Source: Beroe forskalii
Taxonomy: Eukaryota > Ctenophora > Nuda > Beroida > Beroidae
Reading direction: 5' to 3'
DNA: 64,000 nt
Assembly (NCBI GenBank): GCA_011033025.1
Contig: WFMF01000420.1
Span: 1-64,000, forward strand
Positions 10,647 through 60,764 of this stretch are shown piece by piece. The translations under genes were made by a program, and so were the position numbers. The notes under the pieces are model-generated. The model was not told the origin of the DNA, did not search any database, and worked only from the letters and a program-made list of their open reading frames with translations. Every line of letters begins with the position of its first letter. The stretch's first letter is position 1.

Positions 10647-12147
10647 GGGCATAGATCCGTTTGCCACTTTGTCCAGGCGCCAGTCTAATGCAGGTCTAGC
10701 GCCGGTTTAATGCAGGCCTAACGCCAGTCTAGTGCAGGTCTAATGCAGGTTTGGCGCCGGTTTTGTGCAGGTTTAGCGCCGGTTTAGCGCGGGGCCAGCG
10801 CCAGTCTAATGCAGGTCCTGTGCCACTCTAATGCAAGTCTAGCGCCGGTTTGGTGCAGGTCCAGCGCCGGTTGAGCGCGGGTACAGCGCTGGTGCAATGC
10901 AGGTCTAGCGCCGGTTTAATGCAGGTCTTGTGCCAGTCTAGTGCCACTCTAATGCAGGTCTAGCGCTGGTTTGGTGCAGGTCCAGCGCTGGTTTAGCGCG
11001 GGTGCAGCGCTGGTCCAATGCACCTCGGATGCTATCTCAATATAACTTATGCATTTCATACAGATTTGGCGCCGATTAGATTATGCAGGTTTGACGTCTT
11101 TTCATGAATGTTTGGCGCCGTTTTAATGCAGGTGCAACGCCATTCCATTGCGGGTTTGGCGCCGGTTTCATGCAGGTTTAGCATGTTCAATTCTATGCCC
11201 CATGACTCCTCATAATAATAATGAATAATGGTTACCGGTGGTAACTAACGTACTTCATCATTGTTACCGGTGGTAACTAACATACGTTACCATGGTTACC
11301 GATGGTAACTTACGTACATTACCATGGTTATCTGTGGTAACTGACGAACGTTGCCATAGTAACCGGTGGTTACTAACGTACGTTACCATGTTTACCGACC
11401 TGGTAACTAACGTGGGTTACCATGGTTACCGATGGTAGCTAACGTACGTTACCATGGTTACCGAATACCGGTGATAACTTAGGTGGGTTACCATGGTTAC
11501 TGATGGTAACTAACGTGGGTTATCATGGTAAACGGTAGTAACGTATGTTACTATGGTTACCGATGGGAGCTAACGGACGTTACCATGGTTACCGATGGTC
11601 CCTAACGGACGTTACCATGGCTAACGGTGGTAACTAACCTGCATTGGAATGGCGTTGCACCTGCATCAAAACAGCGCCAAATATGCATGAAACGACGTCA
11701 AACCTTCATAATTTAATCGGCGCCAAATCTGTATAAAATGCATAAGTAATATTGAGATAGCATCCGAGGTGCATTGGATCCCAGCGCTGCACCCGCGCTA
11801 AACCAGCGCTGGACCTGCACCAAACCGGCGCTAGACCTGCATTAGAGTGGCACTAGACTGGCACAAGACCTGCATTAAACTTGCGCTAGACCTGCATTGC
11901 ACCAGCGCTGTACCCGCGCTCAACCGGCGCTGGACCTGCACCAAACCGGCGCTAGACTTGCATTAGAGTGGCACAGGACCTGCATTAGACTGGCGCTGGC
12001 CCCGCGCTAAACCGGCGCTAAACCTGCACAAAACCGGCGCCAAACCTGCATTAGACCTGCACTAGACTGGCGTTAGACCTGCATTAAACCGGCGCTAGAC
12101 CTGCATTAGACTGGCGCCTGGACAAAGTGGCAAACGGATCTATGCCC
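10647..12147. mobile_element. 1.5 kb foldback transposon, family 1, with 8 bp target duplication GAAATCTC
   Basis: Bounded by GGGCATAGATCCGTTTGCCA and its perfect inverse, and flanked by GAAATCTC at 10639-10646 and 12148-12155. The two arms (about 560 and 500 bp) are inverted series of words such as GCGCCGGTTTAATGCAGGTC. The centre (about 11213-11640) is a separate tandem array of about 32 bp built on GGTTACCGATGGTAACTAAC. An 8 bp duplication is shared by hAT, P and Merlin superfamilies. The GG start makes Merlin or an atypical hAT possible; without a transposase this stays open. Non-coding, so non-autonomous. Confidence 0.92.
11213..11640. repeat. About 32 bp tandem array (GGTAACTAACGTACGTTACC) in the element centre
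   Basis: About thirteen imperfect units, each containing a GGTTACC or GGTAACC dyad and ACGTACGT-like palindromes. The spacer therefore also has local self-complementarity. It is confined to the middle of the foldback and is absent from the short copy at 3113-3448. Confidence 0.85.
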
Positions 12148-17574: not shown

Positions 17575-17813
17575 ATACATTAGGTCGTACTAGTGAATTT
17601 CGACGGCACACCTGCGACACAACTGCGACACAACTGCGACACAACTGCGATACACCTGCGACACACCTGCGACATACCTACGACACACCTGCGACACACC
17701 TGCGACACAACTCAAACATAAGTTCTATCGTTATTGTGATACAACTACGGCACACCTGCGACACACCTACGACACACTGCGACACAACTCAAACATAAGT
17801 TCTATTGTCATTG

Positions 17814-17980
17814 GGGATCGTTCACATATTACGTAATCTATTTTTGGCAGATTTTAACTCCCCCCCCGCCCCCTCGTAATCAAGTTTACAGTAGTTGTAT
17901 TTGTTACATTAACATGTAACGTAATCATTCCGAAACCCCCTCACTCCCCCTAGGTGATTACGTAATATGTGAACGATCCC
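17814..17980. mobile_element. 167 bp MITE nested in copy A, 3 bp target duplication TTG
   Basis: GGGATCGTTCACATATTACG and the perfect inverse CGTAATATGTGAACGATCCC bound it. TTG flanks both sides (17811-17813 and 17981-17983), and sister sequence without the insert (about 18085-18100) confirms the empty site. A 3 bp duplication and a GGG start suggest a PIF/Harbinger-like MITE, by analogy only. Confidence 0.88.
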
Positions 17981-18426
17981 TTGTGATACACCTACGACAC
18001 ACCTGCGACATACCTACGACACACCTACGACACACCTATGACACACCTGCGACACAACTGCGACACAATTCAAACATAAGTTCTATTGTTATTGTGATAC
18101 ACCTACGACATACCTACGGACGGTTACCACTAACGGACAGTTTAAGTTACCAGTCAGTATAGGTAAACCAATGAACCCCTGCTGACCCCTGGTGAACCCT
18201 CACTGACCCCCTACTGACCCCGTGGTGAATCTCAACTGACCCCATACTGACCAATTCCTGATAATTTTTCTAGCACTTATCATGACTGTTAAAAAGTGCT
18301 TAAAATATCACTCAGCCTTATGATGACACTTAACTCTTCAATAACCAGTCGGTCCCATAGCACCATAAACGCACTCAAAGTTAATAAGTCATATGTTATT
18401 CAAGTCAGTAATTTGTTGGTCAAGTC

Positions 18427-18840
18427 AGTCAAGTCAATTTAGTCGAGTTAGTTCGATCAAGTCAGTCAAGTCAGTCAAGTCAGTCAAGTCAGTCAAGTCA
18501 GTCAAGTCAGTCAAGTCAGTCAAGTCAGTCAAGTCAGTCAAGTCAGTCAAGTCAGTCAAGTCAGTCAAGTCAGTCAAGTCAGTCAAGTCAGTCAAGTCAG
18601 TCAAGTCAGTCAAGTCAGTCCAAGTCAGTCAAGTCAGTCAAGTCAGTCAAAGTCAAGTCAGTCAAGTCAGTCCAAGTCAGTCAAGTCAGTCAAGTCAGTC
18701 AAGTCAGTCAAGTCAGTCAAGTCAGTCAAGTCAGTCAAGTCAGTCAAGTCAGTCAAGTCAGTCAAGTCAGTCAAGTCAGTCAAGTCAGTCAAGTCAGTCA
18801 AGTCAGTCAAGTCAGTCAAGTCAGTCAAGTCAGTCAAGTT
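18427..18840. repeat. 9 bp array (GTCAGTCAA)n in the core of copy A
   Basis: About 40 nearly identical units with a few one-base slips (near 18620, 18650 and 18671) that shift the reading frame from one repeated tripeptide to another. The corresponding core of the sister copy (about 27165-27360) has only degenerate, non-expanded GTCAAGTCA words. Confidence 0.95.
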
Positions 18841-19624
18841 GGTTGGGTTAGTCGAGTAAGTAAAGTTAGGCTAACGTGACTAACTTGACTTGACTAGACT
18901 GACTTGACTCACTTACCTGTGAGTGCGTTTATGGTCTTATGGACATTTGAAGTGCTTTTAACTTTTTAAAACAGTCATGATAAGTGTTAGAATAATGATC
19001 AGGAATTGGTCAGTAGGGGGTCAGTTCACAGTTGAGGTTCACCACGGGGTCAGTAGGGGGTCAGTGAGGGTTCACCAGGGGTCAGCAGGGGGTTGGTATA
19101 TACTATGCTGACTGGTAACTCAAACTGTCCGTTAATTATTAACCGTCTGTAGGTATGTCGTAGGTGTATCACAATAACAATAGAACGTATGTTTGAGTTG
19201 AGTCGCAGTTGTGTCGCAGTTGTGTCGTAGGTGTGTCGCAGGTATGTCGTAGGTGTGTCGCAGTTGTGTCGCAGGTGTGTCGTAGGTGTGTCGCAGGTGT
19301 GTCGTAGGTATGTCGCAGGTGTGCCGTAGTTGTATCACAATACCGATAGAACTTATGTTTGAGTTGTGTCGCAGCTATGTCGCAGGTGTGCCGCAGGTGT
19401 GCCGCAGGTGTGTCGCAGGTATGTCGCAGGTGTGTCGCAGGTATGTCGCAGGTATGTCGCAGGTGTGTCGTCGAAATTCACTCGTACGACCATACATTAA
19501 TCAATGATCATCTCGAAGTACCTGAAAAAAATCACCGTTATTCATATCAAAGACGTACGGCGTATTCATAAGTACTGTAGGCAAATCCGTGCGCAGGATT
19601 CAACAAACTGCAAACGTATAGAAT

Positions 19625-26423: not shown

Positions 26424-28109
26424 GAAGTCAAAGACAAGATCACGTGGGAACATAACCTTGACCATGCCCGCAATTTTGAGGACAAGAAATTCACTGCAAG
26501 GATTCGCTGTAGTGCTCACAAACTCAATATAGAAACTGGAAGGCACAAAAACATTCCTAAAGCAGAAAGGATCTGTGACTTCTGCTCATCAAAAGGAATC
26601 GACATCTCAGCTATTGAAGACGAAGAACACATCCTTGCCACTTGTCCACTAACAACATCACATAGGCATAAGATGGCATCACTGGGTCGTACAAGTGAAT
26701 TTCGACGACACACCTGCGACACACCTGCGACATACCTGCGACACACCTGCGACATACCTGTGACACACCTGCGACACATCCACGACACACCTGCGACACA
26801 ACTCAAACATAAGTTCTATCGTTATTGTGATGCAACTACGGCGTGACACCTGCGACAGACCTACGACACACCTGCGACACAACTGCGACACAACTCAAAC
26901 ATAAGTTCTATTGTTATTGTGATACACCTACGACATACCTACGGACGGCTACCACTAACGGACAGTTTGAGTAACCAGTCAGTATAGGTATACCAATGAC
27001 CCCCTGCTGACCCCTGGTGAACCCTCACCGACCCCCTACTGACCCCGTGGTCAACCTCAACTGACCCCCTCTGACCAATTCCTGATCATTATTCTAACAC
27101 GTCTTATCATGACTGTTTTAGAAGCACTTAAAATGTCAATAAGACCATAAACGCACTCATAGTTAAGTGAGTCAAGTCAGTCTAGTCAAGTCAAGTTATT
27201 CACGTTAGCCTTACTCGACTAAATTGACTAACCCAACCAACTTGACTGACTTGACTGCAGACTTAATCGAACATACCCGACTACATTGACTTGACTTATT
27301 TGACTTGACTGACTTGACTAACAAATGACTGACTTGACTAACATATTAACATATGACTTATTAACTTTGAGTGCGTTTATGGTGTTATGGGACCGACTGG
27401 TTATTGAAGAGTTATGCGTCATTATAAGGCTGAGTGATATTCTAAGCACTTTTTAAACAGTCATGATAAGTGTTAGAATAATGGTCAGGAATTGGTCAGA
27501 AGGGGGTAAGTTGAGGTTGATCACGGGGTCAGTAGGGGGTCGGTGAGGGTTATCCAGGGGTCAGCAGGGGGTCATTGGTATACCTATACTGAGTACTGAC
27601 TGGTAACTCAAACTGTCAGTTAGTGGTAACCGTCCGTAGGTATGTCGTAGGTGTATCACAATAACAATAGAACTTATGTTTGAGTTGTGTCGCAGTTGTG
27701 TCGCAGGTGTGTCGTAGGTCTGTCGCAGGTGTCACGCCGTATTTGCATCACAATAACGATAGAACTTATGTTTGAGTTGTGTCGCAGGTGTGTCGCAGGT
27801 GTGTCGTAGGTCTGTCGCAGGTGTCACGCCGTATTTGCATCACAATAACGATAGAACTTATGTTTGAGTTGTGTCGCAGGTGTGTCGCAGGTGTGTCGCA
27901 GGTATGTCGCAGGTGTGTCGCAGGTTTGTTGCAGGTGTGTCGTGGATGTGTCGCAAGTGTGTCGCAGGTGTGTCGCAGGTATGTCGCAGTTGTGTCGCAG
28001 GTGTGTCGTCGAAATTCACTAGTACGACCCATCACTGATCAACAGTCTTGACATCAACCATGGTGATACTCCTCTCAATAGCCAGGACATATCCACCAGG
28101 TCCTGCTGA
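26424..28109 (+). pseudogene. LINE ORF2 C-terminal end, split by a 1.3 kb foldback transposon
   Basis: From 26424 the frame reads EVKDKITWEHNLD, then FTARIRCSAHKLNIETGRHK, then the cysteine-histidine cluster (ICDFCSSKG, EDEEHILATCP) typical of the extreme C-terminus of some non-LTR reverse transcriptases. After the host codons at 26677-26684 a foldback element intervenes. The same frame resumes at 28038 (INSLDINHGDTPLNS) and stops at 28107-28109. An upstream in-frame stop (26421-26423) shows decay, and the catalytic part is absent. The neighbouring ORF1 remnant lies on the opposite strand, as in LINE copies whose 5' part was inverted during insertion. Confidence 0.78.
26685..28029. mobile_element. 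1.35 kb foldback transposon, family 2, copy B, with 8 bp target duplication CATCACTG
   Basis: Ends GGTCGTACAAGTGAATTTCG and CGAAATTCACTAGTACGACC. CATCACTG is duplicated at 26677-26684 and 28030-28037. It sits inside LINE ORF2, and its removal with one copy of the duplication restores the open frame. The interior matches copy A (17583-19491) in inverse orientation but lacks the expanded 9 bp core and the nested MITE. Confidence 0.93.
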
Positions 28110-48427: not shown

Positions 48428-49745
48428 AGTGGAGGCTAAGTGGAGGCTGAGTGGAGCCTAAATCAATAAGCCTACAAAACACAAATTTCTTGCTGAAAAT
48501 GGTGATTTATGTGTACTAATGTGAAAAACAATATATAGCTTCAAACTTTCAGACAGCTCCAACTGTCCTACACTCAGCCTCCACTAGGCTCCACTTAGCA
48601 GCCACTAGGCTCCACTCAGCCTCCACTAGGCTCCACTCAGCCTCCACTAGCCTCCACTTAGCCTCCACTAGGCTCCACTCAGCCTCCGCTGGGCTCCACT
48701 CAGGCCCCACTGGCCTCCACTAGGCTCCACTCAGCCTCCACTAGGCTCCACTCAGCCTCCACTAGGCTCCACTGGCCACCACTAGGCTCCACTAGCCTCA
48801 ACTAGGATCAATAGGCTCCACTAGCCTCACTAGGCTCCATTCAGCCTCCACTAGGCTCACTTAGCCTCCACTAGGCTCCACTCAACCTCCACTAGGCTCC
48901 ACTCAGCCTCCACTAGGCTCCATTCAGCCTCCCACTAGGCTCCCTTAGCCTCCACTAGGCTCCACTCAGCCTCCACTAGGCTCCATAGCTCCACCAGCCT
49001 AGTGGAGGCCAGTGGAGGCTAGTGGTTAGTGGAGGCTGAGTGGAGCCTAGTGGAGGCTGAGTGGAGGCTAATGAGGCTGAGTGGAGGCTGCGTGGAGGCT
49101 AGTGGAGGCTGAATGGAGCCTAGTGGAGGCTGAGTGGAGCCTAGTGGAGGCTAAGTGGAGCCTAGTGGAGGCTGAGGAAGCCTAGTGGAGCCTAGTGGGA
49201 GGCTGAGTGGATTCTAGTGGAGGCCTAGTGGTGCCTAATACTAGACTTTGGTCTATGTTACACAATGTGCTCTTTTTGTACAATCATGACATAGATTTAA
49301 TTTTTGGAGGCTAGCATATTATCTGTGTTTTTCATGATTTTAGCCTACATTTGGAGGCTATAGCCTCCACTAGCACTGTCAAAATAGCTTCCATAGAATC
49401 CAAAAAATGACTTTTTTAAATTTCCGTGGAGGCTAATGGAGGCTAAATCTTGAGTGGAGGCTAGTGGAGGCTAGTGGAGGCTAAACCAAAATTTAGCCTC
49501 CATGGAGGCTGAGTGGAGGCTGAGTGGAGGCTGAGTGGAGGCTAGTGGAGCCTAGTGGAGGCTAGTGGAGGCTAATATAGCCTCCATAGTGAGGCTTATT
49601 TTTCGAAAATTAGCCTCATGCCTCCACTAGCCTCCGTGGAGGCTAATTTTTGAAATTAGCCTCCACTTAGCCTCCACTCAGGCTCCACTCAGCCTCCACT
49701 CAGCCTCCATGGAGGCTAATGGAGGCTAATGGAGGCTAATTTTTG
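48428..49745. repeat. AGTGGAGGCT/AGCCTCCACT array with inverted halves
   Basis: From about 48567 to about 49000 units read AGCCTCCACTAGGCTCCACT (about 21 bp). At about 48998 (CCAGCCTAGTGGAGG) the orientation flips, and the inverse units continue to about 49245. A second set of short inverted blocks follows at 49420-49735 around GAGGCTAATTTTTGAAATTA. The whole is a giant imperfect palindrome. No clear termini or target duplication were found. Confidence 0.88.
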
Positions 49746-58901: not shown

Positions 58902-59406
58902 TAAAGTTAATTCTATATCATTGTCAGATTTCCTGATGACGTTGAAGATTCGGCATAATAGGCCGCGAACTTTAGTTCGCCGCGAACCCGGGCGAACTCA
59001 GGCGAACCCGCGCGAACTCCGCGCGAGTTCGCCAGCGTTCGCCGACAGTTCGCCAATTTTTTTCCTTTGCGAACTCCGCTGAAGTTCGCCGAAAGTTCGC
59101 CAGACGTTCGCCGAACTCCGGGCGAACTCGAGCGAACTCAGGCGAACCCGCGCGGAGTTCGCCGCAAACTGAGACGAACTAGTTCGCCGCGAACTAGTTC
59201 GCAGCGAACTTAAAATTTTTGGTTGGCGAACGATTTTTTGGAGTTCGCGGCGGACTCGTTCGCGGCGAACTTGTTCGCAGCGAACTAGTTCGCGGCGGAC
59301 TAGTTCGCCGCGAACTACTTTTTTCTAAGTTCGCGGCGAACTAGTTCGCGGCGAACTTTTGTCCGACGTTGTCTGACCCCTTCGCCTTCGGTTAGGGTTT
59401 GGGTTA

Positions 59407-59720
59407 GGGGCCATCCATAAACTAAAAGGACGTCCGCAAAATTTCGAGCATTTTAGACCCCTCCTCCCCCTTGTCCGCAAACGTCCGCATTTCAGAAACC
59501 CCTCCCTCCCCCAGGACGTCCGCACTTTTCTTTAAAATCTTTTGAGTCATCATTCTGGGCCCGAAATTTCACGATTTTCTTGTGAAATAACCGTCAAATC
59601 GACCAAAAATTGCGGACGTCCGCATTTGACCAAACACCCCCTCCCCCTATGTCCGCAAACATCCGCATTGGCCAGACTCCCCCTCCCCCCTCATTGCGGA
59701 CGTCCTTTATGGATGGCCCC
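59407..59720. mobile_element. 314 bp MITE nested in the telomere-like array, TTA target duplication
   Basis: Ends GGGGCCATCCATAAA and TTTATGGATGGCCCC, with TTA on both sides (59404-59406 and 59721-59723). Interior has GGACGTCCGCAAA words in both orientations and C-rich tracts. A TTA duplication with a GGG start fits a PIF/Harbinger-type MITE by analogy. Confidence 0.88.
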
Positions 59721-60240
59721 TTAGGGTTTGGGTTAGGGTTTGGGTTAGGGTTTGGGTTAGGGTTTGGGTTAGGGTTTGGGTTAGGGTTTGGGTTAGGGTT
59801 TGGGTTAGGGTTTGGGTTAGGGTTTGGGTTAGGGTTTGGGTTAGGGTTTGGGTTAGGGTTTGGGTTAGGGGTTTGGGTTAGGGTTTGGGTTAGGGTTTGG
59901 GTTAGGTTTGGGTTAGGGTTTGGGTTAGGGTTTGGGTTAGGGTTTGGGTTAGGGTTTGGGTTAGGGTTTGGGTTAGGGTTTGGGTTAGGGTTTGGGTTAG
60001 GGTTTGGGTTAGGGTTTGGGTTAGGGTTTGGGTTAGGGTTTGGGTTAGGGTTTGGGTTAGGGTTTGGGTTAGGGTTTGGGTTAGGGGTTTGGGTTAGGGT
60101 TTGGGTTAGGGTTTGGGTTTGGGTTAGGGTTTGGGTTAGGGTTTGGGTTAGGGTTTGGGTTAGGGTTTGGGTTAGGGTTTGGGTTAGGGTTTGGGTTAGG
60201 GTTTGGGTTAGGGTCTGGGTTTGGATTCGGGTTAGGGTTT
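59721..60240. repeat. 12 bp telomere-like array (TTAGGGTTTGGG)n, about 42 units
   Basis: Alternating TTAGGG and TTTGGG hexamers, very homogeneous with four single-base slips (near 59869, 59905, 60085 and 60114). One further unit lies left of the nested MITE (59392-59406). All G-rich on the plus strand. It lies in the middle of a transposon, so it is an internal array and not a chromosome end. Confidence 0.96.
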
Positions 60241-60764
60241 GCGAACAATCGTTCGAGGTGAACTAGTTTGGCAGTTTGCAGCGGAATTGTTATAACTTAT
60301 AGTTGATGACAAACAAGTTCGCAGCACAAAATGAATAATGAAGTTCGCCGCGAACTAGTTCGCCGCGAACTTAGAAAAAACTAGTTCTTGGCGAACTAGT
60401 TCGCGGCGAACTAGTCCGCCGCGAACTTGTTCGCCACGAACTAGTTCGCCGCGAACGATTGTCCGCCGGCGAACAATCGTTCGCCAACCAAAAATTTTAA
60501 GTTCGCTGCGAACAAGTTCGCGGCGAACTAGTTCGCCAGTTTGCGGCGAACTCCGCGCGGGTTCGCCTGAGTTCGCTCGAGTTCGCCCGGAGTTCGGCGA
60601 ACGTCTGGCGAACTCTCGGCGAACTTCAGCGGAGTTCGCCAAGGAAAAAAATTGGCGAACTGTCGGCGAACGCTTGCGAACCCGCGCGAACTCCGCGCGG
60701 GTTCGCCTGAGTTCGCCCGGGTTCGCGGCGAACTAAAGTTCGCGGCCTATTATGCCGAAGATTC

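Follow-up and report, generated by a model that had tools for sequence, protein, structure and literature searches.

A telomere-like minisatellite carried between the arms of a foldback transposon, probably a Merlin element, in Beroe forskalii

Merlin DNA transposons have a terminal 5'-GG-3', TIRs of 24-462 bp and a target duplication (TSD) of 8 or 9 bp, according to the definition in the available text of PMC8101967. Foldback elements of other superfamilies are also described, such as Galileo, which has multiple transposase sites in its long repetitive arms in the accessible part of its description (PMC3688188), and Tetris, for which the available text reports that foldbacks feed satellites (PMC4079207). 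Mobile elements are frequent neighbours of interstitial telomeric tracts (ITSs), and their transposition is named as one possible mechanism by which ITSs arise in the part of PMC6410037 at hand, while the TERC-ITSs are judged not to be transposon-spread in the accessible text of PMC8537989. No telomere-repeat-carrying DNA transposon of the build described here is among the matches listed in a literature search that had most subscription journals outside its scope. The element studied here lies in a window of 64,000 nucleotides, the whole stretch of DNA that was analysed, and is read, with a probability of about 0.75, as a foldback DNA transposon that is non-autonomous, most likely Merlin, and has a telomere-like minisatellite middle as cargo.

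The element spans 58952-60756 with exact edges, starting with GGCATAATAGGCCGCGAACT on the left and finishing with the reverse complement of GGCATAATAGGCCGCGAACT on the right. It is flanked on both sides by identical copies of GAAGATTC, at 58944-58951 and 60757-60764, and this perfect TSD bears out the original prediction of a foldback element with 8-bp target duplications. The TSD also rules out a chromosome-fusion scar at the window locus. The left arm (58952-59358, plus strand), which starts with GGCATAATAGGCCGCGAACT and matches the right arm in a search of its own genome, is 407 bp long, and the right arm (60341-60756, minus strand), which aligns to the left one as its inverted copy, is 416 bp long, with 386 of 398 aligned bases identical when gaps are excluded. 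The inner part of the left arm is formed by 15-bp odd palindromes, AGTTCGCGGCGAACT, located by the program TRF at 59242-59357. Palindromes, with a 1-base centre allowed, number 13 in the left arm, against a shuffle mean of 2.3, and 0 of 300 shuffles are as high; even palindromes alone give no separation, as the arms of this family, called A, hold 4 against shuffle means of 1.5 and 1.3 and maxima of 7 and 6.

Between the arms, a left spacer at 59359-59389 (plus strand), with similar sequence in the MITE-bearing copies compared, leads to a 17-bp stub of the telomere-like array (59390-59406, plus strand), which ends in the TTA duplicated by a nested MITE. This MITE of 314 bp (59407-59720; TIR GGGGCCATCCATAAA, TSD TTA), which is recognised by its sequence and by blastn in other copies, is taken by us to be of PIF/Harbinger type from its TIR and TSD. 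The main array follows at 59721-60241 (plus strand), with 43.8 units of TTAGGGTTTGGG at 94% matches according to TRF, and a spacer at 60242-60340 (plus strand) connects it to the right arm. The element holds 43 TTAGGG and 42 TTTGGG hexamers in about 44 units of TTAGGGTTTGGG, in agreement with the predicted core of about 42 units, half TTAGGG and half TTTGGG. The first description thus had the edges and the core right and missed the MITE of 314 bp that interrupts the array. The window element has all the features of the foldback class, namely arms that are long, inverted and internally repetitive, flanking TSDs and a non-coding middle. Its single long frame, an ORF of 218 aa across the array (59610-60266), is a by-product of the 12-bp unit. 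Folding of the array strands with ordinary pairing found nothing, in a default model that omits quadruplexes; the GGG-N3 period, which is kept in family A, is quadruplex-prone.

The genome searched has 216 Mb in 1134 contigs. The family A terminus, with at most 2 mismatches, has 122 matches in it, which indicate about 60 copies, and (TTAGGGTTTGGG)2 has 1411 exact matches; the reversed-pattern controls are 0 in both searches and in the other pattern searches that had one, which rules out a chance origin of the patterns. The sample of both-ended copies has 28 members (25 plus three more); copies chosen by whole-element similarity are biased toward array bearers. Their TSD is an exact 8 bp in 26, matches at 7/8 in 1 and is absent in 1; in copy L012, which also has an inner terminus, the TSD is exact when the outer terminus is used. 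The array is present in 26 of the 28, at different sites, and lies between the arms in all 26. Its orientation relative to the arms is that of the window in 24 of these 26, the window counted, with L012 and L034 as the exceptions. Three more copies (L080, L081 and L084), which fall outside the 28 since one terminus is too diverged for an exact match, are all array-bearing. A less biased sample was drawn with the terminal 201 bp, taking the top 30 of 40 scored candidates and collapsing them by hand to 26 distinct copies, and 24 of these have an array run. The two others are L018, which is truncated, and L023, in which the stretch examined stops short of the other arm.

The genome search by termini therefore finds the array shared among family copies (26/28 both-ended, 24/26 by the terminal 201 bp), and this sharing rules out a private insertion. 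Because 26 of the 28 both-ended copies bear the array, and do so at different sites, it is cargo of the mobile element, as had been proposed. Copies without any core, which the original prediction had named as the sign of a private insertion, do occur in 2 of the 28, and the array in the other 26 leaves the cargo reading standing. One of the two (L100) is a 447-bp deletion form, with inner parts gone and no array, and the other (L101, C404:173832-174635) is an 804-bp form with the arms directly joined, without core and without TSD, which arose possibly by deletion or recombination. The array is dispensable for the existence of the element, because these two copies have both ends and no array. 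Two family A copies, L037 (C669) and L023 (C170), are apparently interrupted by other DNA. By eye, an open frame of L037 resembles a non-LTR reverse transcriptase, and the flanks of L018 and L037 have frames that are transporter-like and fatty-acid-synthase-like.

The nested MITE is found by blastn in 21 of the 26 array-bearing copies, and the MITE is missing from five that do have the array (L012, L015, L016, L036 and L102), which makes the array the older of the two. Both would precede the spread of the main subfamily. The end sequence of the MITE is also found downstream of the Merlin ORF in L094. The array is the part that changes most among copies that are otherwise near-identical: in L001, L069 and L070 it measures 499, 464 and 469 bp, respectively. 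It holds 13 of the 14 substitutions and 35 of the 41 gap columns between L001 and L069, 5 of 8 and 34 of 52 between L001 and L070, and 11 of 13 and 45 of 59 between L069 and L070. Across 25 copies, 1112 of 1269 pairs of adjacent hexamers (88%) alternate. This alternation, and the concentration of variation in the array between near-identical copies, favour slippage or unequal exchange of the 12-bp unit as the probable source of array change, and not telomerase copying of a 6-base unit.

Elements with three other kinds of ends also have telomere-like cores. B elements end in GGCACATTACCACTTGTGCAAACCGCC and have the TSDs AACAAATG (L059), GTCGGTTG (L057) and AAAAAATG (L089), the C element (L068) ends in GGCAAATGACCACATTGCAAAATCGCC with TSD CTATAATT, and the D element (L091) ends in GGCTAAATCCTATTTATGCAAAACGCC with TSD AACCTAGC. 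The B, C and D elements examined all have GGC[A/T] ends, 8-bp TSDs and cores of TTAGGG type. A and C have a core of alternating TTAGGGTTTGGG, B has TTAGGG and some TTTGGG, and D has TTAGGG and TTGGGG. L059 and L089 are located on C44, L057 on C20, L068 on C50 and L091 on C66, and the core of L068 is inverted head-to-head, with a TTAGGG run followed by a CCCTAA run. Termini with at most 3 mismatches, counted regardless of core, number 119 for B, 179 for C and 95 for D, with controls of 0. On inspection only, the arms of B and D seem related to each other, and the arms of A to none of the other three.

Array clusters were grouped by hand from the matches listed, which are 100 of 408 places for (TTAGGGTTTGGG)5 and 100 of 443 places for (TTAGGG)5. 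Among these matches, (TTAGGGTTTGGG)5 forms 18 clusters, of which 10 lie between paired A/B/C termini, 4 are within 2.5 kb of a single terminus and 4 have none, and a D terminus is seen by eye near two of the last four (C192:1041760 and C111:369344). One of the one-terminus assignments, to B at C172:406918, is doubtful, as the B element lies wholly beside the array, and the D terminus at C172:409055 fits better. The (TTAGGG)5 matches listed form 22 clusters, 8 between paired termini, 3 with one terminus and 11 with none, and one of these 11 (on C66) is the D element L091. Plain TTAGGG tracts are also present where no such ends are found, such as a long array inside C492, and all 100 of the matches listed for (TTAGGG)10, which has 220 places, are inside this contig. 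The long plain TTAGGG arrays of C492 lie at 397640-398796 and 408722-408967 of an 817-kb contig, outside the foldback families, and L093 covers 201 bases of them. No telomere repeat occurs in the last 100 bases at 20 ends of 10 contigs, and no assembled chromosome end is seen whose repeat could be compared with the core.

The window itself has other foldbacks. A scan for GG-ended inverted termini with an 8-bp TSD, one mismatch allowed, gives five candidates including 58952-60756, and the reversed window gives 0. The candidate at 49097-49632, which is inside a tandem array, is doubtful. The other three, at 10647-12147, 17583-19491 and 26685-28029, are GG-ended foldbacks with exact 8-bp TSDs and different tandem repeats inside. 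The element at 10647-12147 has the TIR GGGCATAGATCCGTTT, perfect in its first 16 bp, the TSD GAAATCTC, 22-bp repeats in its arms and a core of a 32-bp tandem repeat (ATGGTTACCGG...). Those at 17583-19491 and 26685-28029 are related, with the TIR GGTCGTAC[T/A/G]AGTGAAT, arms of 11-bp repeats (CACACCTGCGA-like) and the TSDs ATACATTA and CATCACTG, respectively, and the core of the former is built by about 47 copies of the 9-mer GTCAAGTCA. Passive capture is favoured over a special role, because tandem repeats of several kinds, the telomere-like core among them, are carried in this way.

Family A is most likely a member of the Merlin (IS1016-related) superfamily, as judged from its sequence, since its ends, arms and TSD length match this superfamily best. 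The window element starts with GGCATAATAGG... and has arms of 407 and 416 bp, within the Merlin range of TIR lengths, and the exact 8-bp TSD of 26 of the 28 both-ended copies is a Merlin length. The genome has 35 matches to the transposase domain PF12762 (DDE_Tnp_IS1595), with open frames of up to 377 aa. One Merlin copy, at C171:120483-123218 (L095), of which about 0.9 kb of the 3' part is outside the sequence read, has the ends GGCAGTATCCAAGTTGCCCGACA, is flanked on either side by the TSD CAATTTTC and contains an open frame of 297 aa that matches PF12762 with E 1.4e-19. L094, on C188, is a Merlin element with a 297-aa PF12762 frame, and at C263:69513-71458 the TSD AGGGATCG surrounds a PF12762 match. 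A PDB search with the Merlin protein gives a single match with an uninformative E of 0.83. The ends of family A and Merlin have GGCA alone in common. Merlin is the best fit and is not proven, because a by-eye comparison of 100 of the 122 terminus places finds no PF12762 match within 3 kb of family A termini. In a palindrome test that allows a 1-base centre, the arms of A, B, C and D and the 5' arm of the C171 Merlin copy each have 0 of 300 shuffles as high. The number is 15 of 300 for the C188 Merlin copy, 16 of 300 for one control stretch, and 184, 147 and 300 of 300 for the remaining three foldbacks of the window.

Movement of the cargo element by a transposase of another superfamily, Mutator or hAT, is unlikely. 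It would accord with Tetris, which has TSDs of 8-10 bp and is assigned to Mutator, and whose authors, in the available text, state that the majority of foldbacks seem to belong to Mutator (PMC4079207). The same by-eye comparison, over 100 of the 122 terminus places, finds no PF12762 transposase match beside family A ends, which also leaves room for another enzyme; however, 26 of 28 copies have a TSD of exactly 8 bp, the ends start with GG, and the same genome has Merlin copies that end in GGCA and are flanked by 8-bp TSDs. Mutator elements have as a rule a 9-bp TSD, and a MULE transposase; the TSD of family A is 8 bp. Palindrome-rich 5' arms like those of family A also point to Merlin, although in only one of the two Merlin copies tested (C171, not C188). 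Addition or renewal of the arrays copy by copy, via telomerase or double-strand-break repair, is highly improbable: insertion by break repair is documented for vertebrate ITSs in the accessible part of PMC8537989, but here every one of the 26 bearing copies has the array between its arms, 24 of them in one shared orientation, the MITE is nested in 21 of the 26, and the 12-bp unit alternates at 1112 of 1269 neighbours.

A further reading is that the G-rich core is selected because it forms G-quadruplexes, recruits telomere proteins, affects replication timing or protects the hairpin arms, so that TTNGGG-type cores occur in several families. In its favour, TTAGGG-type cores occur with four kinds of ends, and the arms of A seem on inspection unrelated to the B, C and D arms. 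The arms of B and D seem related on inspection, however, which makes some of the cores non-independent; one copy has its two arms but lacks a core, and the three other GG-ended foldbacks of the window, with exact 8-bp TSDs, carry different repeats. Binding sites are also rare. Human TRF1 and TRF2 bind YTAGGGTTR in the available text of PMC5651854, and this site, a human consensus that may not be the one of the host, is absent from the window element and is found 94 times in 25 copies that hold 741 TTAGGG hexamers, being scarce in family A because the alternating TTTGGG breaks it; the D element L091 has 22 sites against 25 TTAGGG. The proposal that such an element could spread telomere-like tracts and telomere-protein sites is thus upheld at many sites for the tracts and stays weak for the protein sites, with no TRF-type site in the window copy. 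Selection on the core is on balance quite improbable. Still more doubtful is a wider proposal, in which several Merlin-type foldback families would have separately acquired or long kept G-triplet cores (TTAGGG, TTAGGGTTTGGG, TTAGGGTTGGGG) because these are useful to the element, by forming G-quadruplexes or by drawing it to telomere-protein compartments, and the elements would continually seed telomere-like DNA across the genome, and perhaps new chromosome ends as well.

For the preferred reading, a Merlin-type foldback with the array as cargo, insertion with 8-bp TSDs at many sites, the long inverted arms and the inheritance of the array with the element are read directly from the copies. A Merlin transposase made elsewhere would bind the GGCA... 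ends and the arms, which may be carriers of transposase sites by analogy with Galileo, and would excise the element and paste it elsewhere with the TTAGGGTTTGGG block as passenger DNA. Comparison of the arrays suggests that two arms first enclosed a short seed of telomere type, and that the block then grew and still changes length via slippage or unequal exchange of the 12-bp unit, without telomerase.

At the sequence level, the window locus and its family are a clear case of transposon-spread interstitial telomere-like DNA, and many intrachromosomal telomere-like tracts of this genome are probably products of transposition. ITS tracts are usually read as scars of fusion or break repair, and here transposition can be read from the TSDs, the arms, the shared MITE and the about 60 copies, so telomere-like DNA inside these chromosomes need not mark old fusions or repaired breaks. 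In such genomes, counts of TTAGGG tracts by FISH or sequence are not marks of fusion unless transposon ends are checked. The family A copies are also a natural series for the rate at which telomere-type arrays change at internal sites.

Among described systems, Merlin (IS1016/IS1595-related) shares with family A the terminal GG, the 8-bp TSD and a long TIR, as far as the available text of PMC8101967 goes, whereas family A has long foldback arms and a telomere-like core, and no transposase is seen in it. Galileo and Tetris, in the accessible parts of their descriptions, resemble family A in their long inverted arms, which contain tandem repeats, in their non-coding middle and in their variable size. 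Galileo belongs to the P superfamily (PMC3688188) and Tetris to Mutator (PMC4079207), while the 8-bp TSD and GG ends of family A point to Merlin and its middle is TTAGGGTTTGGG. The insect (GTCY)n MITEs and the Xenopus Xstir, in the available text of PMC6947457, are likewise cases of a tandem repeat that rides in a non-autonomous DNA transposon, but the passenger here is telomere-type and is found with several kinds of ends. TERC-ITSs, which come from break repair, are also telomere-like tracts within chromosomes, whereas the tracts described here are carried by a transposon.
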